Origin: Gordius sp. MW1
Taxonomy: Eukaryota > Nematomorpha > Gordioida > Gordea > Gordiidae
Reading direction: 5' to 3'
DNA length: 64,000 nucleotides
Assembly (NCBI GenBank): GCA_964036665.1
Contig: OZ038526.1
Coordinates: 5,084,001 to 5,148,000, forward strand
The translations under genes and the position numbers were made by a program. Positions 3,001 to 63,584 of the stretch are shown one piece after another (within the stretch, counting starts at the first letter, position 1; the number at the start of each line of letters is the position of its first letter). The notes beneath the pieces were generated by a model, which made no database searches, was not told the DNA's origin, and saw only the letters and a program-made list of their open reading frames with translations.

Positions 3001-3780
3001 ATTTAACTCAGAAAAGATCCACGAGAAACAAAGTTTTTGATGAATTTCAACACAATCTCTTATTAGCGGGAGTTTATAACAAAATGTATAATTTGCTATA
3101 GAAAAATAGATTTGCTAAGAGTCAAATTCATGGAAATACTGAACAAAATTCATCCCGTTGCAACTTTTACTTTGCAGCTAAATGAACGATTTATTTTTAA
3201 AAAAACAACTTAAGTATTTTAACTGAACCTGACTTTTATATGGCATCATCTTAAACTAAATAGGCCTGTGCCTATATTCTCAAATTTATTAACGCCATTG
3301 CTTAATATAAGAATGCTATTTTTATATATGGGCCTGTCTACGGGTAACCACATGTAGAAATGAGCTCCGTTATAGACACAAAAGATTAAAAAATAAGAAT
3401 ATATATAAATAGATTAGCATTTTTTACTTCGTAAATTATTTCTCATCCCAAAGCAAATTATAGATATACTATCGCTGAGCCTAAAAAAATAACTTATTTT
3501 TATAAGTAAAACGATTTTATAACGTTTGGTAGTTTATTAACTAAAATTTTATTTTCAAAAAATATAAATAAAAATTTAAAAATGTATGCGTATCTAAATT
3601 CAATCGATTATTCGTTTTACAAATGTGCAAACTCTTAAAAATTTAGGCTTATGTAACATGTAAGTAGGATAAATATTTTATAGTGATTTAAATATCAATT
3701 GTAAAAATGGAGTGCAAACACTAAATCAAAACTTGTCATCCGTTTTGTTTTCAATATGTTAAAATACAAATAAAATAACC
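1..3780. other. Gene-poor AT-rich flank
   Basis: No reading frame, splice-consistent exon or RNA gene could be supported here. The sequence is AT-rich with scattered homopolymer A/T runs. A small GC-richer patch near 1380-1440 has no coding character in any frame. Further exons of the minus-strand gene that starts at 4452 would lie in this direction, but I could not recognise any, so they may lie beyond the window edge. Confidence 0.5.
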
Positions 3781-4452: not shown

Positions 4453-7400
4453 GCTATGAAGGTGAAATGTGAAATGCTGTGAGTTTCATCGAGCGATGCT
4501 TAAAGCATTAAAAAAATTTGACGATGGATGCCATCTTATGGGATATAAATTTTTAACGCGAGAACTTGCGATGCGAAAATTAGGAGAACTTCGCCAATAT
4601 CCAACGAACGTCATATTAATCAGGTAAAAGGAGACACTTTTGAAGGAGCCATACGTAATTTGTTAGTAACGCGATGTAATGGGGCTGTGATAAAGGAAAA
4701 GGTACTCTAAGTTTTCACCGTGAGTAACATTTCGATGATGTCTCTAACTATTATTTTAAAGATGCAAATCGATAAATCAGTTATTCATGTATCGGTAAAT
4801 AAATTCAATTGATTCGAAGCTACCAATGACGGGTGCCACATTTATTTACACAAATGAGCTAATGACTATGGGAGGTGCTGGAGTTAACGAATGTGATTTT
4901 TTTGACTTTTTCTAGGTATAAGATTCGATCGTAGTCAACCTTATCAGGACGGCATGGGTAGGGAAAAAATTACTAGAACGAGCGCCTAAAAATTGATTAG
5001 TACACATCGATGAAGCTATAAGCATATCGCCCTTAACACACCGTGTAAGCAAATGATCAGTCCCAATCAATCATATAGAGGCTGGGTGATGAGGTAGGGT
5101 GGCTAGGGAAATTTACCGCAAATTAATCACAGCAGACCGAGGAACAAGACTGAACGTTAATCAACTAAACAGAGCATAAGAATATGATGGGCACATTAAG
5201 TACGTTATACATGGGCGTAGCCAGGTTTTGGATTAGAGGGGGGGGGGGGCAAAACATAAATTTTTTAATTTTTAAGGGTTTTTGTATTGAAATTATTTTT
5301 TCATTTAGGGGTGGGGGCGCCCCCCTGGCTACCATGATTTTATATGATACTTTTTACACCAGACTAAACTTGTAAATAATATCCTTATTCTATCTAGAGC
5401 CACTTGATGAATAAAATTTAAATTGGGCCGCCAATATATCTATTGCCGAAAGGGGGAAGTTGTGAAGTTCGGTTAGTGCAGGAATTTAGTTTGCAAAAAG
5501 TTATGTGAGCTGATTGAAGTTATTTTTATTTAAAAAAGTATGACACCGTGATTGCCCGTATTTTATGTGTCGCTTTGTTGCTTCAAACCGCGGCACGCTT
5601 TGATCTCGCTCGAAAGTTAATAAATTTAACAAGAAAACATGATAGGAAAGATAATTTAAAATTTAATAATAGGCAACATAAGCTAAGTTACTCTCAGTTT
5701 TAATTAAAAAGAATTAAATATTAAATTAATTCTTAGTTAAGTTTATTTAGGCTTGTATTTATTAAATTAAAACGATTAAATCAAACAACGTCGCGACAAG
5801 TGTAATACCTTGCACATTGCATACTTTAAAAAAATATAAAATTCATTAAACAAATAGCTTTTAACAAAAAAGTGATATTTCACCATTAATTTTTTTAATT
5901 AAATAAAATATATGACACATGGCTCTTATTGATTATAAATAAAAATTAACTTTTTTGGTTTAAACTATAATTTTTTTAATAACACTCTACACCAATTTAA
6001 TGCTAATAACGACTTGATTTAAATAAAAATATTCAATATTTAAGGCATGAAAAAGGCGACCTTCATCTTCTAAGTTAAAGTTATCTTAATTTGTGACGCA
6101 AAAAGTAGCGAAAAATTATGACATATACCCCTTGACCAATTGGTTCATCACTAATTAATTTGGAACATCTTTAATCAATTTATTTATATATATAATAATT
6201 TCATAATTATTGTCTTTCACATTGTCCCCTTTAAAAGAATTATTGACTATAAAAAGTAGGCGTTCATGAAGGCATAGGATAATAGACAAAACCCGTGATC
6301 CTATTCCATCTTCCCTTGGCTAACCAAACGGTCTCATTATTATTATTACTAAAATCAAGCTGTTAAAATTTTTAGATAACAACGGGAAGATTCACGAATA
6401 ATTGACAAGTTAATTTTTTAGTGATCGGGCTGACAGAAATCGTTTAAGTCAACCCAAGCTCACAGATTTGGGTAAAATACTAACAATTATGCTATAACAC
6501 TTTTTCCAAGAAGTGGAAAACCTTTTCAGCTCTGTATAAGACAAATTTTACACTAAGAAATGGTAGGCAAGGCGCAATTAATACTCTTTAAAAATATAGG
6601 GAAAATCCTAGGGCCTTACTCATTTTGATGACTATTTAACACATGAACTTATTGATCAATCATATCAAACGCCGATCTAGGTTAGCTTAGTTAATCGATT
6701 TCAATACGTCATATATAAATTCTCCTAAAATGACGTCAGTCTCTTTTTATTATTTTAAAAAATTTCATTTTTAATTCAACTAATCTAGGGCAATAAATAA
6801 CTTAGAAAAATGGCATTAACCTTACTTTTTTTATACACTTTGAATTTTTTCAAATACTATTTGGTGATTCACATTACATAAATGTTTATTTCTGTAAAAG
6901 CCAACAATTTACTGAAAAAAAATAATTTAAAGATGGCCTATGTTTATAAAAACGTTCCCCAGTTTCGATAAATTTTATTTCCTCAACCAATTAAAGATAT
7001 GATAAATTGCTATTAAATTCGTTAAACTACGGCATCTTTCCCCCTATAAGTAATTGCGCGGGTTAGCTAGTAGATGTGATGAGCAAAGTTGTCTTTAACA
7101 ACATAATAGGATAAGTATATTATGTGATACAGAGAAAAGAGTAATAAAAATAATTTACTTTATAGTAATTTCCCTAAGGATCTTAATAATGGTCCATCAA
7201 AAGTTATATTTTGAAATTGACTGTTAATGTGGTTTAAATGCACTAAGCGTTCATGATTTAAACCAATCAATACCAATTAACATTGTCCCGTATGCCAAAA
7301 CTTAAAACATAACAATCACATCAAATTATTAACTCCAGATTATTATTATATGCAATCATTATAAACCATGGTATAATAATTTTTTAAATGGATTAAAAAC

Positions 7401-29200: not shown

Positions 29201-32200
29201 GTAAAATGAGCTTATTAATTGGTAAGCGTGATGGGTTGATATCAGAGACCAGAAAAGCCCGACCAGCTTTTTGGCCCGGCCCCATTTTTCCATGTCCCTG
29301 GGCCAGGCAACTGTCGTAAATTTAGGTTTTCGGGTGGATCCTGGCGGGCACCATAAAAATATCGGGCTCAATGATATTTTCTTAAAGGTGTGTTATTTTG
29401 TTTTCGCGTATTATTTTGTCACTTTTTTATATGATTGTATGATGTTTAGTTAATTTAGTTCTTATCCAAAAGATCAAAACTCTGCTTTAAAATCAAAAAA
29501 TAATATTTTTTGGGCCTCTAATGATTTGGGCTTGATCGGGCGGACACTTGATGGGCTCGGGCGGTGCCGGGTCGGCAATTTAGTAATAAAATCGGACCGG
29601 GCCGGGTTCGGGTCGAAAAGTATAAACAAGTCTGCTCTGGTTACGATCCCGTCCCCACACATGTTGTTTTAAACGGCGATTCAACCGGTATATTTTTAAT
29701 AAACGCGCAAGGAAGCGGATCGTTAATTGCATATAATGTTACTTCAAAAATTTATTTTATTTACTTAATTTACCGATGGCCTGACTCTTCTATAGTATTT
29801 TGACGCACCTAAAACAAATTTTTGGGTTATCCTTGTAAAAATAGCCCAATGTAAATTGAAACTACAACTACACTGGTTTAACCCTTTTTTGGTATATACA
29901 TAGCTTGCGGTATCCCCCGGACCGGGTGGCAAATAGATCCCTTTGGCCATTCCGCTGGTCAAGCCGCCCTGCTAGCCGCCATGGGTTTCGACGCCCTCTT
30001 TTTTGGTCGCATCTCCGATTCCACCAAAAACGCTCGCATGCTGGACCATACGATGGAATTTTTGTGGCATCCCCTTCCACGTTGTACGCCCTAAAACAAT
30101 AAAGATGCGCATAGTTTTTTGCGTTTTTTTTCTCTTTTTCATTTTATTTTTCTAGCAGCATTCGATAAATTTTTTAGATTTTTTATTATTAATTTCAGTT
30201 TACGTAAGAAGCGAGTTAGCACAAGTTTTAAGAGAAATATCGTATGTCGTATTGAGGGCATTCCTTATTACTGAACCGATTGTTCTTTCTGGCAGATTTA
30301 AAGGATTTTGATTACATTACTAAGATTTTTTCAAAAATATTCAAATGTTGACCTTTCAATGTTTTTGCGATTGCTTGAGACTGAGAGTTTTACATTTACC
30401 GTCGTACTTGATTTTGATCAAACGTTGTTTTAATGTAACTCCAATTATGCTAGTTGAAGAGATTTACGGGGATAGAGCTTTCGTAATGAGGAACTCGGGA
30501 GCTGCTCCAAACAGCAGCAATAGCGACATGTTCGTCTCCATCCTACCCAACGTGTACTGGCCGCCCCCCGGCTTCTGCTTTGACATCTTTTGCGACGATG
30601 ACCCTATACAGGTGCGAAACTTATATTGCATGAAACGTTTTTGATAATGACAGCTTTAATAAATCTTCACATTGAGTGATATTTGTGAATTGATTAGAGT
30701 AATAATAGAACTTATTACATGACATGGTTCGACTCCGACCGAAGACGTTTGCATTATCTTTTGGAACATTTATAAAGTGTTGGCTGGGTTTGTTGGTTTT
30801 AGTCGAAATCAAAACCAAAGGTTGACCAAACAAAACTCAGCCGTTTTTGCAACATAGATTTCTAATATAGAGCTCACAAGTACTACGATGTTAATTAAAT
30901 TACAGTCATATATGTGAATGTATGAAAGACGAGGCGTTTATCATTATACCTTTCTTTTATTTATATCGGTTTCAAGTTAATGCCATATCATTGTTATTAT
31001 TATTATTATCATCATAAACTCGTCTTTATACGTTTCATCATTTTCATCATTCCAGTAATTATTCCTTTATTTATTTATTCCTTTATATATTTATCATTTA
31101 TTTATTTAATCTATTTATCTTTTTTTTTGTATTAAACAATTATTAATAACGAAATTTGTGCCCGAATTTCCGATTTAGGATAACCCGATGGAGGGTGGCT
31201 ACAATATGCCCGAACGCGTGTCCGCCTTCCTGTCCGAGATGGAGCGCCAAGCCAAGAACTACGACACCAACCACCTCATTGTCACGATGGGCAACGACTT
31301 CAACTACCAATCGGGCGACAATTGGTTCCGCAACCTCGACAAGCTCATCCGCTACGTCAATCAGCAGGTGGGAATATCGTGGCACTATTGTATACATCTA
31401 GATAGACTGCTCATCAACGAACAAAATGTGTACCCTTTTTTCCACCATTTTGAAAGGCACATTGTAAAGTGGTGATCATATAGAAGTTCGTCATTTTCGC
31501 AAATTAAATAATCTTAAAAAGGTAAATAAAAAAATATTGAATAGGGTAGATGTCAAAAACAACATTTTAAAATAAATATCATTTACACAATACATAAAAA
31601 TTAAAAATGTAAAAGATGCGATTAAAGTTTGTTTATTAATATAGCGCCATCAATATTAATTGATATTTTGTATAATATTAATTTATTGACGTTCGTTTTA
31701 ATTTATAAACTAGTTAGGAAGGTAAATTGACTGTTATAGAGCAAAATTACATGGTTAAAATACACCAGTTGCCCTCTTCAAAATGGAGGAAAATCTGACA
31801 CACAATTTACCATATGCAACTATGGCATGAGCAGTCTATCTAGTCTATGGTTACAAAGTTGTTAGGGAACAAATATATAGTTATTTTGTGTGTGTGTGTA
31901 TGGATATATTGATTTCGATTGGGGAAGAGACGGTTATTTTTTCGATTGGGGAAAGGAGATTAGAAAACTTTACAAAACATATGATCTTACCATTTCGGTT
32001 TTGGTTTACAATATTAAAATATATAAGTCTAATACAATAATATAAAACCGATATTAATATGCAGTTAATGTGATATATGAATATAAGTTATCAACTAAAC
32101 GAATCTTTCTTTAACGGGTGTTCGTTCCTATGTTCGCGTCGACTCGAATTAATATTGAATTGATACCTAATAGATTTTTTGATACCATTATAGGCAAAGT

Positions 32201-35200
32201 CTACTTTGTTTAGTGTTTTGCCTGGGCTTAATTTTGCGTGAGACTTTTTTATGTTTTTCCGTCGAAGTGCTCCTCGGGCTTTGTCTGCAAATTCTTGACT
32301 TCCGCGAATTAACAAGCTTGCTCTTTTCTCGGTCCATCCGAAAAACATGAACGATCATGGTTGTAAATGACAAACGTTTTAGACCGGAAAAATTGGCTGG
32401 CTAGATTTGGATAAAGGCTTTGGCCTTTCTTTTAACCTTTTAGTGAACTTAATTTTGTTTTAGCGTTTAAGTATATGGGTTTGTTATTCCTGCCAGACAC
32501 AATTTCATTGTAACTCGGTGTAGAATTTTGTATCTCATGTTCACTCCCCACTCATTTTCCGATATAAAATAAACTTTGATTTTCCCTGTAATAACATCGC
32601 TCGCAACCTTATATAAAATAAGTCGGGCTTCAAACTTTTGTACTCTCGCGCGTATATAAAACTATTACTCAATCGAACGCAGCGTTCTCTCAACGGCTCT
32701 TCCTTGGAATTTAACGCCTTCTACTCCACGCCGGGCTGCTATTCCTACGCCCTGAACCAGGCTAAAAGCGGCGGGCCGAAGGCTAGCCTCAAACGTAAAC
32801 GGCAAGTTAGGAGGCGATTAATGAAAAACAAACTTGACACGACCCTGGTGTCCACCTATCAAAAGACTTGGCCCGAGCTTAAGGGTGGCGATTTTTTCCC
32901 GCTCGTAAACGCGCCCAGCATGATTTGGACCGGCTATTATACCAGCCGGCCCACTCTCAAAGGCATGATTCGTGATTCTAGCCGATTTCTCCAGGTAAAG
33001 CACCGTGGATTCATTAAGAATTAGATCGAAATTGCTAAATTAAGCCCACTTTTTATTATGATTTAGTCGTCCTTTTCAATCCTGTGACTTGATTTGTTAG
33101 TGGTTCGAGTATAGATTTTTATTGTTTAAGGTATACTCTGTCATTAAGGGTTGAGTTGTTAGTTTTTTCAAATGCCACTTAAACCATTTTTGTAGCCGGC
33201 ATGATTTAAATATAATCGATCCCCTTTATAAATAACCTGGTTTGTGCAAACTAATATTATATTGTCATTTTTAAGGGGGGGGGGGCAATGGTGGTTTTTA
33301 CCTTAAAAACACATTAATATTTGCCCTATATATAATTCCAAATTGAAATGAATAGATTAAGATTGCTACCTTTAACTTAGGTGTGCAAACAAATAGACGC
33401 CCTAGCCCTGCTCCAGGCGCACCACAAGCACGACATTCGCCAACTCGATCGAGCCGTGGCCCTTGCCCAACACCACGACGCGGTTACGGGTACGGCCAAG
33501 CAAGTGGTCAGCTACGATTACGCCCAGAGATTATCACTGGGCCACGAGGAATGCATGGTTAGCTTGACTCGATTGACTTCATTTAGGCATTTTTATATAC
33601 ATTGCTGAAGAGTTTTTTATTTAATAATTTAATTTATTTATTTATATGAGAATAAAGGTCATGTTAAAATGTATGTAATGGATTCCTTAGAGGGCACTAG
33701 TAGTTATAGTTGTGTATTAAACACTTTCACTATTATCTTATCAATGATTTAACCCTCTAACGATAAAAATCATTAGTTTTTGGGTACACGAGAAATATTA
33801 AGCTCTCGCTGGCTGAACTGCAATGAAAGCTTTTGGCCTGTGCGGATGTTTATGCTGTTGTTAATTTGTCTTAATTATGGATTGCTTAGATAGCTATTGG
33901 AGAGGGACTTAGGAAGTTGTCTGTGATCGGGAAACAAGAAAATTTGCGATTTTGCCAGCTCCTCAACATCAGCAGATGCGCCTTCACTCAAACCCATCCT
34001 GAAGTAAATTAGATAGGCCACAAACATTTTAGGGAGACCTTTATTAAAACCCCCTTCCTTTTTTATTGCCTTAGTAAAATTTTGCAACGCAATCTGGACT
34101 TGATCCAAACTTTTATAAAGATGTTACCAATTTGACCCAATTTTTCAGTGTATATTTACTACCATCAATTGCTAAGCAATTTATTCGTACTGATAGACAC
34201 CATTTAGTCGTTTTGTTTATAATAATATCACTTTTTAGGTTTTGTTTAATAGTAAAGCTACCCCAGATTGATTATGGATTTTATAACGACACTAGATCCC
34301 TGCAATTGTTTAAAGTGATTCTCGCAAAATTCTTTAATAGTGCTTTACAACTTTCTCGCTATGTCATACTTTTATTCCTCTTATGTGGCATCTAGTTTGA
34401 CATTGTGGTTTACAATCCGTTGGCGTGGCCAATCGACACTCATGTAACTGTACCCGTGCGTAAAACCGGACTTATCGTGTCCGATATCAACGGGACAATT
34501 CTTCCCTTTCAAGTGACTCTTTATGCGACTATGGCTTAACTCATTTCAGGTCCCTACGCAGAAATTTTTTTTTTTTTGGGGGGGGGGGGGGTGGTTCAAA
34601 TTTTTTCTTGAAATATCAAAAAAATTTATAAGAAAATTGTTTTTGCAATTCAATTAAAGTTTAGATACATGTAGCATCCAGGCGAGTTTGTACAGCAAAA
34701 TTTAGATTTTAAATTTTATTGAGGCTGGTGTAAAGAAGACGAATATAAAAAGCTAATTTGGTATTAAAATCTTTCTAATACAACACATTATTATGTTGAT
34801 GTGAAGTCTCACTTGGTAATTGTCCTACATTTGTTCTAATAAGCAAAAAAAACAAATTATCACGATAAATACCCTATTTTAAAACTTACATGAAATTTCT
34901 CTATAAACGTCTTTTTCAGTTGTTTCCCCGTTTCGACTTGACACCATTTAATGCCTGTGATAGGTGTAGATTAACATTTGTGGTTCTAAATTTGTTATTA
35001 ATAACTCCGGCCTTAAGAAGGTAGGACAAATTGATAAGGACCGAATTCCGAAATTTCAAATTAAACACTTGTTAAAGTTATACCCACCAATTTTCCTATC
35101 GATTTCCCGGGGTCCTTCAAATTGATTACTTAAATCTTAACTAGATTTAAACTATTTTTATTGATTTCACAGCACAACTATTATGTTTTGCGTTTTTATT

Positions 35201-38200
35201 AATTAATTTTCAACTTACAACTGTCGATTTTCACTCGTTTACGACACCTATACCTTACCCTTAAATTGTAGGCACATTTTTGTTTGGCTATTCCAAGGTG
35301 ATCCCCCTACCCCAATCCCTCCGGCGCATCCCAGAACGGCGGACCGAGCTCAATCCCGAGTCCGGCCACGACTCGTCAGCTGTTTTAACGCCACGCGACG
35401 ACAAAGTAAACGTGTTAATATTCCCCGCCAAGTTACCAGCCCTTGGTGCTGCCCGGTTTACCGTTAGAACCAGCAATTCTATCCAAAAGAGCCGAGACCT
35501 TAGTTCTAACGACTTTAGCGCCAAGTAGATTTGTACATAAAAATTATTATTTCGCTTAAAAAACCAGAGCCACTGCGTAGAGACAGTGTAATTATACAAC
35601 TTTTCCTGTTTGGTTTTATTAAAATGCTTGAAAAGTTGGATTAAATATGTTATGGCGGCTTTTATTTAGATTTTTATGCATTTTTTGTCGAAAATTAACT
35701 GGTACTTTGGCAGGGCTTCTCCCTTGTTTAAGGTCATAGAGAGACCGTGTTTTGACTCAGGATTTAAATGAACTTGCATCCTGAAGCATAACGCAACACC
35801 GGTTGATGAACTGCAAAACTTTGTTTGAGCTTAATTTGTTCCATATCGGCGAAATTTGGAACTTTATAATTCATCTTATATTTATCTTTATTTAATATAT
35901 AAAACATTGGTAAAGCGTGATTCGGATAATTTGGCAAATATTTAGTGAAACTAATTTAAATCTTGCAACGTCATATGATTAGGCTGTGCTCAATCCATGA
36001 TTATTTGATCCTTGGGTATTAGAGAACTGCACGGGTGACCCGAGACCCGGGCCCGACCCGACTTCGGGTCGGGCCGGGTTCGGGTAGAAAATTTGAAAAT
36101 GATTTCGGGTCGGGTCGGGTCCGGGTAGAAAATTTGAAAATGATTTCGGGTCGGGTCGGGTCCGGGTAGAAAATTTGAAAATGCTTTCGGGTCGGGTCGG
36201 GTCAAATTTATAGAGTCGGGTCCAAGGTTTGTACATTGTAAAAAACACGCGAGACCTATTTTTTTAATTAATATTAATGTTAAGCCAAGTGTGTTTTTAA
36301 ATATCGAAATGTACAACTAATTTGGATCATTCTTTCATTTAACTCTTCCTCTTTTTTTAAATTTTAAAACTCCTATTCTGAAGTGCTAGCTAATTCTCAT
36401 CACTAAATCAAACTACATAAATTACTCCTGTTTTTAATTTGACTATTAAAAGGTAAATTATTGCAATAAAGTTATATTTTAAATTTTCTTAGTGTTCACC
36501 GTGAAGTTTTAGCTAATCCTCATCGTTAATTTAAATTACATTTAATACATATTCAAAAGCCAACTTAAAAGTAAGTTATAATTTTATATATGTTTCATTT
36601 GCAAATTTATAATTATTTAATATTTTTGTTTATAACAACTCATAATTATTTTTAAGTTTTATATCAAATGAATTTATCTTAAATTGCACTTCAAACTTAA
36701 AACATTTAAACAATCACTTAAATTTCATCATATTTACTATATTGATCATAATTAGCTATATAAGAATGGTTTCATAATAACAATAAAGGATGTTTAATAG
36801 TTGTCTAAAGTCTATAACATATGAGCAGTTTACTTGTTATCACGAAACTAAATATAGATAAATAAATATGAGTTTTTTTCACCATCCCCTTTAAAGAATA
36901 CAAATCATCATGGCGTTTATTTGTCGATGTAATTTTACACACAGCAATTTTCGCGCTCGAAAGTAATTTGTTTTAAAAATTTTTCGGGTCGGGTTCGGGT
37001 TGAAGTTTTTAAAATGCTTTCGGGTCGGGTTCGGGTAGAAAATTTGAAAATGATTTCGGGTCGGGTCGGGTCCGGGTAGAAAATATGAAAATGATTTTGG
37101 GTCGGGTCCGGGTAGAATATTTGAAAATGATTTCGGGTCGGGTCGGGTTCGGGTTGAAAAAAAGTGACTTTGCAGTTCTCTATTGGGTATTGTCGTTATA
37201 CAAACTTTGGCTAAATGTGATATTTTAGCGTAAAAACTAAGCGCGTTTTCTTATTTTAGAACAAGATTTGCGGGAGACGACATCGAACTAAATTCGATTC
37301 TGCAACCAGACGAGGCCCTAACCAAAGGTACCCTTGATGCAGAGGGAGGCGACCAAGACCATACGTCGGACAATCAGGATTACTTTATTGAAAACGAGGT
37401 TTAGCTTTAAACGATTTAAACATATTTTATTTTGTAAGGTGTTTTTTTCAATTTGTTTATGTTGTTGTCTAAGATAATAATACATTGTTTGCGGCTTGAA
37501 ATAATAACAAATAATTTTGGGAATCTTGTGATTTTATCTTAAATTTGATTCATGAACCGTGATAGATGACCTTCACTTTTTAGTTTTCTTCAATTTATCA
37601 TTTCATTAGTGCCTAAATATTTTACATCAATGATTACATAATGTTTAATACCGAATTCGTTATCCTCACTATGTATTATAACTTTTTTTACCCATGTTTG
37701 ACGGGATCTGTTGTTTTTTCACTTTGCCTACCATTAACTACGATTATTTCCTCAGATTCTCAGGTTGGAGTTCGATCCGGCTACCAATCACATTAGCAAA
37801 TTGACCAACAAAAAGACCGGCCTGACCACGGCCTTAAACCAAACGTTCGGTTATTACGGCGGCCCTGTAACGGCTGCCTCCTCGGGTGCCTACGTTTTTC
37901 GATCTCATACCCTGGTGCCCAATGATTTGTCCGAATACTCGTCGGGAACAACCTTGAAAATCCTCAAGGTAAATATCAGATTTTATTTTTTGATCTAACC
38001 CGGTTTAATGCCTTTTGCCACCATCGCGTAAACATTTAGAATAAGTTTAACATCATCTGAACTATTATAAGTGTCTGGATGAGCTTTTGAGTTTTTCACT
38101 CGAAAGGGACTCCCACATTTCAAAGTTCCTTTAAGTGTTTTTAAATAAAGCGTAAGGAGCCCCCGTTTTGCTTGAAAAACGTTACGCGACAAACACGCTT

Positions 38201-41200
38201 ATTGATGTTGCAATTTCTGATTTCTATCTTTGAATATTCGTGGTAAATATACTTATATTTTATAATATATTCCTTTTGTGTGGTGTTTTTAACCAGCCAT
38301 GATTTATTAATTTTTAGTCAACTTGTAATTTGAAAATTGGGATTTAAAATTTAATATAATGTAAGTTAAGTTAAATGAAAACTTGTCTTTTATTTTGTTT
38401 TCTCTACAATTGCTTAACTTTGTATTTTAAATAAACACCTTGTCAGGCCCAAATCATTTTTATTTTACGTGGCTCAGTAGTTTACAAACGCGATTGGGAA
38501 AGCGTAAATAATCTAAATTAGTAAACTCGAACATATGTCAAGATCTGCTTAGTTGTTAATACAGAGCTATCCACTGATATTTACGACAAGCGCACTAATG
38601 CAACACCTCGCGTTGTAATTCCAAATTTCAAATATAGCCTTAGCAGCCTTGATTTATCAATCATTTCTAGGGCCCAGTCTTACAACAAGCTCGTCAAAGT
38701 TTTGCCCCTTGGATCGACCAAGAAATTACGCTATACCCGGGAGTCCCCGCGGTTGAGCTTACTTGGACGGTTGGCCCCATCCCCATCAACGACACCGTGG
38801 CAAAGGACGTGGTCACGCGCTTCCATTCGGACCTAGCGTCTTGGCAAGAGCGCGCCGATAACGTCGGCGTCGACAACATTTTCTACACCGACTCCAACGC
38901 GCGTTTCGTGGTGCAGCGTCGTTTGACGCTCCAACCCGACGCTGTCAGGCGGGAACCTAATTTCATAGCCCGCAACTATTACCCCCTCACCTCTCGTATC
39001 TTTATTAAAGACGAACTCACGGTTAGTCCGCCCCCTTTATAGACTTATTACCGCGATTTTATAGGGACTTCTTCGATCTGCCTGTCTAATAATTTCCTCA
39101 ACTAATTGATTGCGAGTCTAAGGGTTTTGCTTGAGAGAATTTTAATTGATAAGTTTGAAATATTGATACAAAGCCGATCAATTGTAATAATCGTATATTT
39201 TTTTAACAAAATGTCATTAATTGACGCATAAATGCATGTAGTATTAGTAAATTTACCAAATTAAGCACTTAAACCGCTCAAATTTGTGTTTGTCTGTCCC
39301 CCCTCCTATAAAAGTATAATGCTATTGATGTATGTTAAAGGTATTTAAACGTCGGAGTGCCCAATTGTAAATGTATAAATTCCATGATGATGTCGAATAT
39401 CTGACTCTCGTAACTCCTTATGTTTTTTTATCATCTCTTTTAATAATTGCTTTAAATATCTTGCCGCATTCTGACTTATAAATTGAACGGCGAACAATAA
39501 ATTATTTTTATCTTAAGATATACATATTAATATTAGGTAGAAACCTTATTTTTTGAATAATCTATTTAACAATATTTACTAAAATAAAAAATCGATTGGC
39601 CTTAAGGGAGGAAGCACTTCTGATCAGGCACCCCGCCAACTTGGTATACTGGTTGATCGGGCTCAAGGGGGCACGAGCCCCGACAAGGGAACCCTGGAAA
39701 TCATGTTACATCGCCGTTTGTTGACGGATGACAATTTGGGCGTGGGTGAACCACTCAACGAAAAAGGTGTCGATGGCCAAGGTAATGAATGATTCATAAG
39801 TGTGGGCAGGGTATTTTGGATATTAAGATTCATTGCTACCCTAGATTTTGGACGCTAACAGTTAATGGCATTATTGATTTAGTACATTTGATTAAGAATT
39901 AATTGTAAAGCAACTATTATAACATTTGGTGTGCTCTTAACAAAATAACTTAAGCGTATAATTTATCAAGGTGTCTATATGCCGCAGAGCATGGAAGTTG
40001 TTTTTTATTATAAATATTTGTATTGTGGTATAATTTTGAATAAAAATTTTTAACACATACATCTATGTTGCCATTTTTTAATTGCAATATATCATAAATA
40101 AGGCTTGATCGCGAGGGGTAAGCACTGGCTCATATTCGATGCACCGATGGAGTGCGACGCTATCTTAACCAAGATGGCCCAAATTCAATATCTCAGACCG
40201 CAGGTCATGTTCGTTGCGGCGCAATCAAAACCACCCAAAATCCCTTACGACGTACGTTAGTTTTCACTTTGTATTTTGCAAGTGTCGTTTAATACATTTC
40301 GTTTTCTTCTACAGGGTCAATTCGTGAGTAGGCCTCTTCCACCCAATCTTCACCTCCTCTCCTTGGCTCAATGGGAAAGATCGATTCTGCTTCGTCTGGA
40401 ACACATATACGCCCCCGGCGAGCACTCCACCCTCTCTCAGCCCGTCTCCATCGACTTGACCGTATTCACTTTCAATTTTATAGATTCTATTTTTGTGAAA
40501 TTTATTTATTACAACGAACTAACTCCTTATCTAGTGTGGGGATTAGTTATTTAGGTGGAGGGGGAACGGATATTCAGTAGCTTTTAATTAACTAGGAGGC
40601 TGTTATACTTTTTATTACGCCTTCAAAATACAAATGACTGTTACATCTCTAACAACGAATGAATGAAATGAATGAATGTGTTACATATGTTTTTCGCTAT
40701 TTATTGCAAAACCCGAAATATATATATACACAATTAAATTATAACAAATCGCGTCGGGACGTGTCGGCTGGTCACCGATTCTCGCACTTCTACAATGCCA
40801 AACATAAACGTAGCAAGAATAACTAGAGGGGGGGGGGCAAAATGATTGCTTATTGAAATATGAGCTATAATTGTTTGGAAATTTCAAGACAGTCTGGATT
40901 TAGAGGGGGCAGTCGACCCTCCCTGCCTCACCACGTTTACGTCTATTGTGTCAAATATACATAAATAATCAAACACTAGGATTACATGCGCATTATATAT
41001 CACTCAAAAACGACTAAGTAAATTTTATCGCAAGGATAGTCAAGAGATATTTATATTTTTAGAAAATTTTTGCCACCTTTACCGTCACGCGAATAACCGA
41101 AATGTCGTTGGGCGTAAATCAATTGTTGAGCGAAGTTGATCGATTTAAATGGCCGGTCCAGGACTCGACCCCTGAATCTATTGAGACACGGCCTCAAGGC

Positions 41201-59312: not shown

Positions 59313-62300
59313 ATGATCCTTTTCACCGTGCCATTTGGTCAATGTCATAAATTCCAAACTTCCACCACATTCTTTCTAGTGATTTTGGTTGTCGCTTTGG
59401 CGTGGGATAAAAACACGGCAAAGTCGGAACTCCTCAACAATACCACATTCGATAACGCGGCCCCCCAATTTGATGAAAACAACCTGTCGTTAAATCAATT
59501 TGAGGATGGTAAGGAATATGTCATAGTGTCTACTCATTCAGGCAAAGTGAGAGGTTTCCGATCGCCCCCTTCATCCTTCTCAATTTATTTCAACGACCCC
59601 ACGTCACGCACTATAGCTCTAGCGGTGGATAACTTTCTAGGCATTCCCTATGCCAAACCGCCTGTTGGAGTCCTACGCTTTCGGAGTCCCCTACCATCAG
59701 AGCCATGGTCCATATTTGATGCTACTAAGCCGCCGAATGCCTGCCCCCAGTTAAAAGATACAACTTTTGGACGAGATTTTAAAGGAACCGATCAATGGAA
59801 CGCAAAAACTGTTATAAGTGAAGATTGCCTGACTCTTAATATTTGGGTTCCTTATCCAAGGACTGGTGTTGAAGGCCAAGGTTCAAAGCCCCTAGCTGTC
59901 CTTGTATGGATTTATGGAGGTTCCTATGCCAATGGAGCCACAAGTCTACTGCTGTACGATGGCCGCGTCCTTGCGTCACGCTATGGGGTCATTGTAGCAT
60001 CCATAAATTATAGAATGGGTTCGATGGGCTTTCTTTATCTGGGGCCGGGGAGTGAAGTGACGGGGAACGCTGGGCTGTTTGATCAGCTTCTAGCCATGAA
60101 ATGGATCAAACGCAACATTGGTCGTTTTGGAGGCGATCCTGAGCGGATCACTCTGGTGGGAGAAAGTGCTGGAGCCGCCAGTATTTCTTATCATCTTTTG
60201 TCTCCAATAAGTGCGCCCTATTTCAAAAATGTAATTTTGCAAAGCAGCGCCGCCACCAACCCTTGGGGCCTGGTAAAGCGTGGCGAGGCTCTCCGGCGTG
60301 CCAAACACTTAGCCAGAGCAATGCAGTGCGAAATTATTGACGGGCAAGTATATAACAAGTCCAGGTCACGCGCCACGACACCACCCCCATTTTACTACAG
60401 GTACCACGATTACAGCGTGCGCCAGGAATCGGACGACCTTACGCATTTACCCAAACATCAAATAAAGCAAATCCTCGCCTGTCTTAGGTCGCAGAGTATA
60501 TGGAACATCTTAAGGGAAGAAGCCACTACCGTCTCCAAAGCCATGGATTTTCCCTTCGCTCCTGTCGTGGACGGGGAATTATTAAGGGCTCACCCCAAAC
60601 ACCTCCTTGACATGGGACTCTTCAAGCGGGCCGACGTACTCTTAGGAACAAACGCAAACGAAGGTCCCGCCTTCCTCGTCTACTATCTCGATAAGGTGTT
60701 TCACCCTTTACGAGAGAACGTTTCCATGAGCCGAGAGCAGGTGATGTGGTCGGTAGACCGTCTTTTCCACGCTTTTAACAAGATATCTCGCAAAGCCGTC
60801 CTCTTTCGTTACACCGGTTGGGTATCGGCCACCACAGGTCCTACTTTTACCGGCTCGAATCCCGACGACGATAACGGTAAAAATTTAAGGGCCGTTGACC
60901 GCATGTCCAGCGACTATTGGTTCACATGCAGTGTCACGGAATTGGCTGACTACTACGCTCATATCGGAGAACGGGTTTACATGTACCAACTGAGTCACCG
61001 GTCGTCGCAACACGCTTGGCCCCGGTGGATGGGCGTGATGCACGGCGATGAAATCGCTTTCGAATTCGGAGACCCTCTGAGGCTCGGTTCAAATTACACG
61101 TATGCCGAAAAAATTCTTAGCACCACAATGATGCGGTTTTGGACCAACTTCGTCAAGCATTCGTGAGTAACCAAACAAATTCCTTCACGCCGTTTATATT
61201 AAGCTATTAATAAACCAATATAGTAGAGTAGGACTGAAGAATTTTTAAAAAGCTAGTAACAAAAAAATTAAAATTAAAGGTGTGTCTGCCAATTGGTATA
61301 TGCATAACACATTGCTTAAAAAAAAAGAACTCTCTAGTGCGAAATTATTTTGCTGATAGTAGTAGCCTAAATTTTTTTGATTTGTCAACATTTTTGGTTA
61401 TATATTTTCAGCTAATTTAAAATTTATATTATAAAGAGATTATGAATGACTACTTTGCATTTAAAATGTTTTGATAGAATAGGTTATTATGATGTCATCA
61501 AATTCTATATTTATTTTATTTATTTTTCATAAAAAATTACTTTTACAATGAATTTAATAAAAAATTATGTAACAAGAAAATGAAAACATAAAAGGTTATT
61601 CTTTGGGCACTTCTATTTAGGAATTTAATTATTCCGAACTAAATACCAAAGCTTTCAATTATTTCTTCCATCATCGAAATTGACCATGAGCCTATAATTC
61701 AATAAGTTTTTTGATAGATTTTGCTGGAGCACCTTTTAATTTTTAAAACTACTTATGCCCCCATCTCCCCTATAATTATTTCAATTAAAATACTAGCTAA
61801 GCCTTGAGTGGGTTTGGTTAGCCACGCTCCAAGCGATGTTTTAAGCCGTGATTAGATTGGCGAAATTGAAGCCTAGAGATAATAAGTTATTTTTTCGCTT
61901 TTTATAATGAAAATTCTTTGACCCTCATTGCTTTTCTATATTGTATAAACGAGAGGGAGCACTTAAAAATTAGATACTTTAAAAATATTGAACATAAATA
62001 AATTCACAAAGAATTTTTGTTATAATTAAAGATTTCTATAAAATAACAAATCATCAATGTATTTACGTTTTTTTGCTGTTATATAAGGTAGGAAAGAAAG
62101 GTAATTTAATGATTGATATATTATATGCCATGGGCGTACCCTCCCCCCCCCCCCCCCCCTAATCTTGAGGGGAAAAAATTTTCAATGCAAAAACTTTGAA
62201 AAATTAAAAAATTTATGTTTTGCCCCCCTCTAATTGAACTTAACGTTTTGCCCCCCCCCCTAATCCAAAACCTGGCTACGCCCATGTTATAGGCAATACG

Positions 62301-63584
62301 AACTTCCTGGCGTCAAACTAATTAGGATGATCAATTGGCCGGCTTTTAGGATAAGTGTTTTGTATACGTTTTACATCTGTTTTAAAGTATTACTTTGCCA
62401 AAGTGTATAGATCAAAAACATTACAAACATTACCCTCATTCCCAAAAAATGCTATTATTTATTGCGGAGCAAAATATTTTTCATGGGGCAAACCCACTTA
62501 TAATACATCCTATAAAAAAAAGCTAGCTTTACATTCAAAAAAGAGAGAGAAAAATAAACGACAAAAAGTCCAAGTTTATTGAAATTTCTTTTTTAAATTG
62601 AACATATGTTTAAGAAATCCCAACATAAACGCTGAATACGAATGGACCCCGATCCATTGGCCCATATATACGCATTACGGGAAGGAGTGCCTTGAATTAA
62701 ACGCCAACATGACAAAATACAATTACAATGTCACTAGGGGACCAAGGAACAACGAGTGTGCCTTCCAAAAAATCTACTTACCTCAATTACAAAAAGAAAC
62801 GGGTACTGTCACATGGATAGGTTTTGTTTTTGTTGGAATATTTACTGAATAAAATTGTTATGCAAAACCCAACAAGATTTTAAATGGGAGGGGAATTTTA
62901 TACCAAAAAGGTGATAAATTTTTTTAAGTGAAAACAAAAAGGCATTTGAACCCTAACTGATTTTTTGTTTCATTCTTATCTTATCTATAATCTTATGTGA
63001 TATTTTAAGGTCGGACTTTCAAAAATTTACTAAAGACAAGTTTGGTAGGATATATAAAATTATTCTTATGTTAAACAAATTATGGGTCGCTGTTACTATA
63101 GCTTTATATATGCTTTGCAAAAATATTTAGAGGAATTTAATTAAACTGAGTTAAACTGCATTTATAAAATCATTGATAAAAGTTCCCACATTGGTTGGGA
63201 AGGACAACTTCCATTCGAACTATAAATAAATTGGGTGAACCATAAATAGTTAATATTCGAGCTCGGCTAACCAATTTAAATACTCCCCTAAAAATGGACG
63301 TGACTTTGAATTCATATATTCTAATAGATTAAATTACAATTTTACCTTTTAACAAATCAAAAATTGTAAAAACTCCTGCATTTTACAAATTTCATTACCG
63401 CAATATATATGATGGTTGAATGACACTTTTAAAAGAAATACTCCTGTCCGAATCCTCGTGCCAAGCTAATGAGCCAACTAGCGGCTCCAAAACATACTCA
63501 GAAAATGCATTGTGTGGAAGGCGGCATCTCATCGTCATAATGACTTTAACAGTGGGCAAATTATTAGTCAAATCGATTCTTTGA
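59313..63584 (+). CDS. AChE: Acetylcholinesterase, 3 exons (last exon inferred)
   Basis: The enzyme hydrolyses acetylcholine at synapses. Exon 1 is 59313-61162, exon 2 62615-62802, exon 3 probably 63466-63584; the phases agree (718 aa). A signal anchor or peptide covers about residues 15-32. The catalytic triad is Ser285 (GESAGAAS), Glu450 (TNANEGPAF) and His577 (GVMHGDEIAF). The choline-site Trp is Trp162 (GTDQWNAKTVISEDC), and disulfide cysteines pair as Cys144-Cys172, Cys339-Cys390 and Cys539 with the Cys in NNECAFQKIYLPQL of exon 2. NPNINAEYEW and WPIYTHYGKECLELN confirm the family end. Two oddities: the oxyanion segment is YGGSY instead of YGGGF, and Ala453 stands where Phe or Tyr 330 is usual. 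There are insertions at about 83-104 and 343-375, the second as in many protostome enzymes. Exon 3 would add a Cys and a hydrophobic tail (HLIVIMTLTVGKLL). The intron contains a MITE at 62129-62286. Exons 1 and 2 are firm; exon 3 is a guess. Confidence 0.93.
62129..62286. mobile_element. MITE of the CATGGGCGTAGCCAGG family in the acetylcholinesterase intron
   Basis: The left end CATGGGCGTACC and the right end CCTGGCTACGCCCATG are inverted copies around long C tracts and an AT-rich core that closely resembles 12995-13161. The flanks ttatatgc / ttataggc (62121-62128 and 62287-62294) agree at 7 of 8 positions, showing an 8-bp target duplication. Confidence 0.88.

Follow-up and report, generated by a model that had tools for sequence, protein, structure and literature searches.

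The analysed window, a stretch of 64,000 nucleotides, carries a cholinesterase gene in which serine stands at the oxyanion-hole position that corresponds to Gly119 of Torpedo acetylcholinesterase (AChE). We read this gene, with a probability of roughly 0.6, as a diverged Ace1-type AChE paralogue that stems from the duplication that also left a second copy in the same genome (hereafter, L002) and that has been retained as a second, specialised cholinesterase.

Gene structure and family assignment

A 617-codon open reading frame on the + strand (59313-61166, ATG at 59313) encodes a protein of 617 aa. Given its match to PF00135 (COesterase; E = 3.2e-123, 412.8 bits against a curated cut-off of 27) and to the best AChE chain found by phmmer among solved structures (E = 4e-125), this frame is not a chance one. 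The top five solved relatives were the AChE chains 6ary, 6arx, 5x61, 5ydh and 5ydj (E from 4e-125 to 4.6e-124), named in the search output as 'Acetylcholinesterase' without a species, and we take all five to be Anopheles gambiae AChE1 (AgAChE1). Among them, 6ary and 6arx presumably represent the G119S mutant and 5x61 the wild type.

The frame is followed by a second exon that ends in CAFQKIYLPQL and aligns to residues 480-537 of 5x61 (phmmer, E = 1e-6), with a donor, G/GTACTG, at 62803. The last intron, which precedes the NPN of this exon, is common in position and phase to the window gene, L002 and a further paralogue, L006. For the end of the gene, a mechanical scan of the first 1190 bases downstream gave three nested last-exon candidates, where 200 Markov-shuffled sequences averaged 0.395. 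With PF00135, the catalytic triad, Trp84, the six disulfide cysteines and the paralogue-like last intron all recognisable in the sequence, the gene looks intact (Table 1).

Table 1 Features of the window cholinesterase gene, with residues in window-protein numbering, Torpedo equivalents and splice points marked by a slash
Feature	Position	Strand	Details
Exon 1	59313..61162	+	Signal-like N-terminus to ...NFVKHS; last codon split TC/A; PF00135
Trp162, choline-site Trp84, kept	59796..59798	+	Residue alignment
Oxyanion-hole loop IYGGSYANGA	59910..59939	+	Aligned to IFGGGFYSGT of 5x61
TCC codon, Ser204 at the Gly119 position	59922..59924	+	phmmer and alignments
Ala206 at the peripheral-site Tyr121 position	59928..59930	+	Residue alignment
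Catalytic Ser285 (Ser200) in GESAG	60165..60167	+	Residue alignment
Enlarged 50-residue loop, Cys339-Cys390 (Cys254-Cys265)	60330..60479	+	Counted from alignment
Ala404, aligned to peripheral-site Trp279	60522..60524	+	One residue inserted nearby; alternative column Thr, likewise non-aromatic
Catalytic Glu450 (Glu327)	60660..60662	+	Residue alignment
Ala453 at the choline-site Phe330 position	60669..60671	+	Residue alignment
Catalytic His577 (His440)	61041..61043	+	Residue alignment
Exon 1 donor TC/GTGAGT	61163	+	Equivalent split site in L002 and L006
Exon 2	62615..62802	+	NPNINAEYEW...ECAFQKIYLPQLQKETG; Cys521 equivalent inside; acceptor TTTAAG ends 62614
Tentative last exon	63466..63584 (start 63436 with alternative acceptor)	+	Cys and hydrophobic, GPI-signal-like tail; without homology support

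Serine at position 119 and its codon

An AlphaFold2 model built from the single window-protein sequence was unusable (mean pLDDT 32.0, pTM 0.23), and Ser204 was therefore mapped by alignment to solved chains. phmmer aligned it with Ser in 6ary/6arx and with Gly in 5x61/5ydh, with no gap nearby, and when a 51-residue query was used its counterpart in the five AChE chains displayed was the third Gly of IYGGGF. The loop is encoded by ATT (59910), TAT (59913), GGA (59916), GGT (59919), TCC (59922-59924), TAT (59925), GCC (59928) and AAT (59931). A sequence-only reading of the window had reported Ser at residue 204 within IYGGSYAN and had equated it with Torpedo position 119, and both statements agree with the translated frame and with the alignments. 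The span of 59922-59939 that it gave for the motif does include the serine codon, but covers SYANGA; IYGGSYAN itself occupies 59910-59933.

The distance of two changes that the same reading gave between TCC and GGN is correct as a minimum, at least two being needed from any Gly codon, and all three bases differ from the position-119 codons of the Gly-keeping paralogues, i.e., GGG in L002, GGT in L006 and GGT in the more remote L004. In the two papers that give the codon, resistance Ser119 is AGC, which a single change can make from Gly; TCC does not fit such an origin. The G119S codon of Hyalella is AGC in every case (PMC7086107), the G228S change of Tetranychus urticae is GGC to AGC (PMC4636269), and the absence of G119S in Aedes aegypti has been attributed to its Gly codon usage (PMC4598118). 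Because TCC lies at least two steps from Gly and the paralogue sits on a long branch, an old state is favoured, and the earlier argument from the codon against a recent one-step resistance mutation holds. Ser119 is thus probably an old fixed state of the window copy and not the product of recent pesticide selection.

Catalytic triad, choline site and gorge

We tabulated 32 functional sites, with Torpedo numbers that were compared with Table 1 of PMC4919072. The Ser-Glu-His triad (S285, E450, H577) and the GESAG elbow are present. In Torpedo numbering, the residues of the window gene include W84, D72, G118, S119, Y120, A121, Y130, E199, S200, A201, W233, A279, M288, F290, E327, A330, F331, Y334, W432 and H440; the gene shares 25 of the 32 tabulated residues with AgAChE1 and differs at 70, 119, 120, 121, 279, 288 and 330. 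All six cysteines of three predicted disulfides (C67-C94, C254-C265 and C402-C521) are aligned, the last of them in exon 2. The C254-C265 loop, by alignment count, has 50 residues, compared with 13 in L002 and 21 in L006.

Of the 14 classical gorge positions, 8 are aromatic in the window gene, 10 in L002, 11 in L006, 9 in L004, 6 in its neighbour L005 and 11 in AgAChE1. The peripheral anionic site, typified by aromatics at 70, 121 and 279, here has Leu, Ala and Ala (or Thr). A non-aromatic peripheral site is compatible with an AChE identity because AgAChE1 itself has Ile70 and active spider AChEs without Trp279 exist. The sequence-only reading had described the triad and the choline-site Trp as intact; the triad and Trp84 are, but the choline site is partly altered, with Ala at position 330. 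Its expectation of a working enzyme fits the intact triad and Trp84, and the protein is probably active.

Other cholinesterase-like genes in the genome

The window's own genome (211,818,799 bases in 12 contigs, of which C12 is taken as mitochondrial) gave 19 matches in the Pfam search and 13 matches, at eight places, in a search with the window protein; matching proceeded exon by exon, so that a multi-exon cholinesterase could be missed, and a large family may have more genes than were counted. Five of the eight places hold a cholinesterase-like gene whose first exon is large (the window gene, L002, L006, L004 and L005), and the remaining three are short exons of remoter relatives. L002 lies on the window gene's contig (C8, 7.15 Mb), about 2 Mb away, and has GGGY with G119, Y121, F279 and S330. 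L006 (C1, 21.06 Mb) reads GGGFYSG, with G119, Y121, W279, Y330 and F331, and equals AgAChE1 in its number of gorge aromatics. The sequence-only reading had treated the window gene as the acetylcholinesterase of the animal, which is not supported in that form: judged by sequence, L006 (11 of 14 aromatics) and L002 (10 of 14), both with Gly119, are candidates for a further AChE suited to the synaptic role.

The other two genes adjoin each other on C1. L004 (21.83 Mb) keeps GGG (G119) and the triad, and its choline site is altered (F84, F233). In L005 (G000:C1:21834369-21835820, - strand), GQNAG replaces GESAG, with E119, Q199 and N200, and the catalytic Ser is lost; judged from these residues it is not a working Ser hydrolase and likely a non-enzymatic family member. 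L011, the one exon of a more distant relative in this genome for which the oxyanion site was covered, reads GGFF there. Searches for outside relatives returned 11 pattern matches in genome contigs, among which one was a relative (a bacterial MAG, 35% identity), and four in viral contigs, among which none was. We take GGSY at the oxyanion site to be a neuroligin feature; a neuroligin identity of the window gene was considered and rejected, as the intact triad speaks against it.

Phylogeny and sequence constraint

The window protein is 48.8% identical to AgAChE1/5x61 (500 columns), 48.3% to L002 (611 columns), 42.7% to L006 (590 columns), 38.1% to L004 (548 columns) and 33.8% to L005 (538 columns). 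A six-row maximum-likelihood tree paired the window gene and L002 (100/99) and grouped this pair with AgAChE1 (100/98), the latter being the single outside AChE row; the long branches of L004 and L005 meet in this tree, and their placement is unsure. The end branch of the window gene measures 1.29 changes per column, compared with 0.58 for L002.

Among 497 four-way columns, those in which L006 and AgAChE1 have the same residue show 32 changes private to the window gene and 16 private to L002 (p = 0.03), an excess that would also fit relaxed constraint. Columns common to the other three are kept at 173 of 206 in the window gene, 173 of 189 in L002 and 173 of 208 in L006, and the window gene is thus not more eroded than L006. 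Its 33 lost conserved columns (one a gap) include 204, 206, 207 and 209 in the oxyanion/peripheral loop.

Neighbouring sequence and the mitochondrial contig

Upstream of the cholinesterase gene, the exons of a GH38 alpha-mannosidase extend over 31179-39042 on the + strand, with PF01074 and one PF07748 match over the cut-off and PF09261 and another PF07748 match below it. Minisatellite arrays with TCGGGT-rich units of 36-77 bases occupy 36063-36203 and 36981-37160, and the open reading frames across them appear to be translated repeats rather than genes. A poly-C run with a CCTGGCTACGCCCATG-like end, noticed by eye at 62140-62290, lies in the intron that separates cholinesterase exons 1 and 2 and suggests a small repeat element.

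The contig taken as mitochondrial (G000:C12, 14,798 bases; L024 and L025) was translated with code 5. It holds 28 inverted-repeat pairs of at least 25 nt (12 + 16; e.g., L024:6700-6889 and L025:1899-2095), 21 of them perfect and 17 with arms at most 30 nt apart, and several lie within open reading frames. Centres of exact 25-mer inverted repeats occur at 1.96 per kb in this contig versus 0.125 per kb in the window. A nuclear copy of the mitochondrial DNA (L026, G000:C8:2825500-2834500; 98% over 2860 columns) contains a slightly shorter version of the palindrome at mitochondrial 6700-6889 and lacks mitochondrial 3280-3495, which makes up most of another palindrome. Given this presence and absence, some of the mitochondrial hairpins seem genuine, and one or more seem to have been inserted later or to be artefacts of assembly.

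Proposed role of the Ser119 copy

We propose that the window enzyme hydrolyses acetylcholine, as its sequence leads us to infer, and that the Ser119 side chain, beside the catalytic Ser200, would crowd the acyl/oxyanion site. Such crowding would slow turnover, disfavour larger acyl esters and make acylation by aryl carbamates and organophosphates poor, and the lost aromatics at 121 and 279 would make the binding of peripheral ligands weaker. Most of the hydrolysis at synapses would probably fall to the Gly119 copies L006 and/or L002, and the window gene is probably not the main nerve AChE. By analogy, we expect a slow, acetyl-selective auxiliary cholinesterase on which many carbamates and organophosphates would act poorly.

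The expected poor inhibition is proposed because the measured G119S enzymes, AgAChE1 and that of a sand fly, behave so. In the AgAChE1 G119S enzyme, printed Vmax/Km values fall from 19.6 to 5.5 with acetylthiocholine, from 16.3 to 0.27 with propionylthiocholine and from 1.6 to 0.08 with butyrylthiocholine; inhibition by propoxur is merely marginal, and eserine remains inhibitory (PMC4598118). The sand fly G119S enzyme is more than 1000-fold less sensitive to paraoxon and has a propoxur ratio of 19,213, with ratios of merely 27 for eserine and 64 for compound 4, a pyrazolyl carbamate, and in mosquitoes Ser119 carries a cost in turnover and fitness (PMC4268798). On this analogy, the altered inhibitor sensitivity claimed in the sequence-only reading is likely. 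Two findings temper these expectations: aromatics at 8 of 14 gorge positions speak against an auxiliary AChE, and the substrate may have changed because of them; and insensitivity is not readable from one residue, because the altered-gorge paralogues of a wolf spider work as AChEs and differ in their sensitivity to inhibitors.

A change of function is unlikely. The window gene would then encode a neofunctionalised esterase whose main substrate is another ester, or a binding or scavenging protein, which would suit the remodelled oxyanion loop, the non-aromatic residues at 121, 279 and 330, the enlarged C254-C265 loop, private changes that outnumber those of L002, and the presence in the same genome of L004 and L005, which have diverged further, L005 to the loss of its catalytic Ser. 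Precedents are described for mites, where the Acari-specific esterase clades J' and J'' stand beside the AChE clade J (PMC4965064), and for a schistosome cholinesterase paralogue that works as a scavenger (PMC6919630). However, Trp84, Glu199, Asp72, Trp233, Phe290, Phe331 and Tyr334 are kept, as is a share of conserved columns (173 of 206) like that of L006 (173 of 208). A gene in decay, at an early pseudogene stage, is very improbable: several conserved gorge residues are lost and L005 shows that catalytic Ser has gone from a paralogue, but 617 stop-free codons persist despite the long end branch, with splice sites in place and the triad intact.

That the gene is instead the animal's working synaptic AChE, naturally insensitive to organophosphates and carbamates, seems quite unlikely to us. 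Its triad and Trp84 are intact, and its nearest solved relatives are presumably mosquito AChE1. AChE1 is the enzyme behind the catalytic AChE activity of mosquitoes (PMC4598118), and G119S enzymes of other animals retain activity and are insensitive to several such inhibitors (PMC4268798, PMC4598118). Better candidates are nevertheless present in L006 (GGGFYSG, Trp279, Tyr330) and L002 (GGGY), and of these three genes the window gene is the poorest in gorge aromatics (8, versus 10 in L002 and 11 in L006). As improbable as decay is a recent pesticide-selected G119S allele of the kind seen in mosquitoes, spider mites and Hyalella. The residue is identical, and Ser stands at 119 in the AChEs of a carbamate- and organophosphate-resistant strain of Metaseiulus occidentalis and of T. 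urticae London (PMC4965064), but TCC is unreachable from Gly in one step and shares none of its three bases with the paralogue codons, the conserved residues 206, 207 and 209, at most five positions beyond 204, have changed too, and the tree makes the gene an old diverged paralogue.

Within the preferred reading of a retained second cholinesterase, a further suggestion is speculative and itself unlikely: that a dedicated Ser119 AChE has been kept beside Gly119 copies since long before synthetic pesticides, as a permanent natural counterpart to the duplication that pairs sensitive and resistant copies in mosquitoes. Its remodelled gorge (Ala121, Ala330) would then compensate for what Ser119 costs in catalysis, and natural anticholinesterases in food or hosts may have maintained it. 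If expressed and active, the window gene would provide a natural test of AChE function with Ser119, including second-site compensation in the gorge. For genome or amplicon scans it means that Ser119 may stem from an old paralogue rather than from a resistance allele.

Comparison with known systems

Non-Gly residues at 119 in arthropod AChEs and altered-gorge AChE paralogues in spiders are already known. In the titles and abstracts searched, with subscription papers mostly outside the scope, we found no description of a natural TCC-coded Ser119 AChE paralogue; nor, in the literature as far as covered, of the combination of S119 encoded by TCC, A121, A330 and a long loop beside Gly119 sisters.

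The AChE2-5 of the wolf spider Pardosa pseudoannulata are likewise altered-gorge paralogues, active as recombinants, and PpAChE4 has Ala at 119 (PMC4919072 for PpAChE4). They differ in having Arg288, changed Trp233/Phe331 and, in PpAChE3/4, an Asp triad, whereas the window gene keeps Trp233, Phe331 and Glu327. Ser119 is shared with the AChEs of T. urticae (AAO73450; G228S) and M. occidentalis (G193S) (PMC4965064, PMC4919072). However, the AChE of M. occidentalis is described as single-copy (PMC4965064), and the Ser of T. urticae is a resistance allele, with a frequency of about 0% in the two susceptible reference strains (PMC4636269).

AgAChE1 (5x61 and 6ary/6arx) comprises the nearest solved relatives and shares the triad, Trp84 and the six cysteines, 6ary/6arx also Ser119; in contrast, the window gene exists alongside Gly119 paralogues, with a TCC-encoded Ser, replacements of Tyr121, Trp279 and Tyr330, and a long C254-C265 loop. 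One Anopheles ace-1 duplication reportedly joins Gly119 and Ser119 copies. The heterogeneous ace-1 duplications of Anopheles resemble the present case in linking a duplicated ace-1 locus to the resistance substitution (PMC10997782). Those duplications arose under insecticide treatment, whereas the window gene and L002 are 48% identical.
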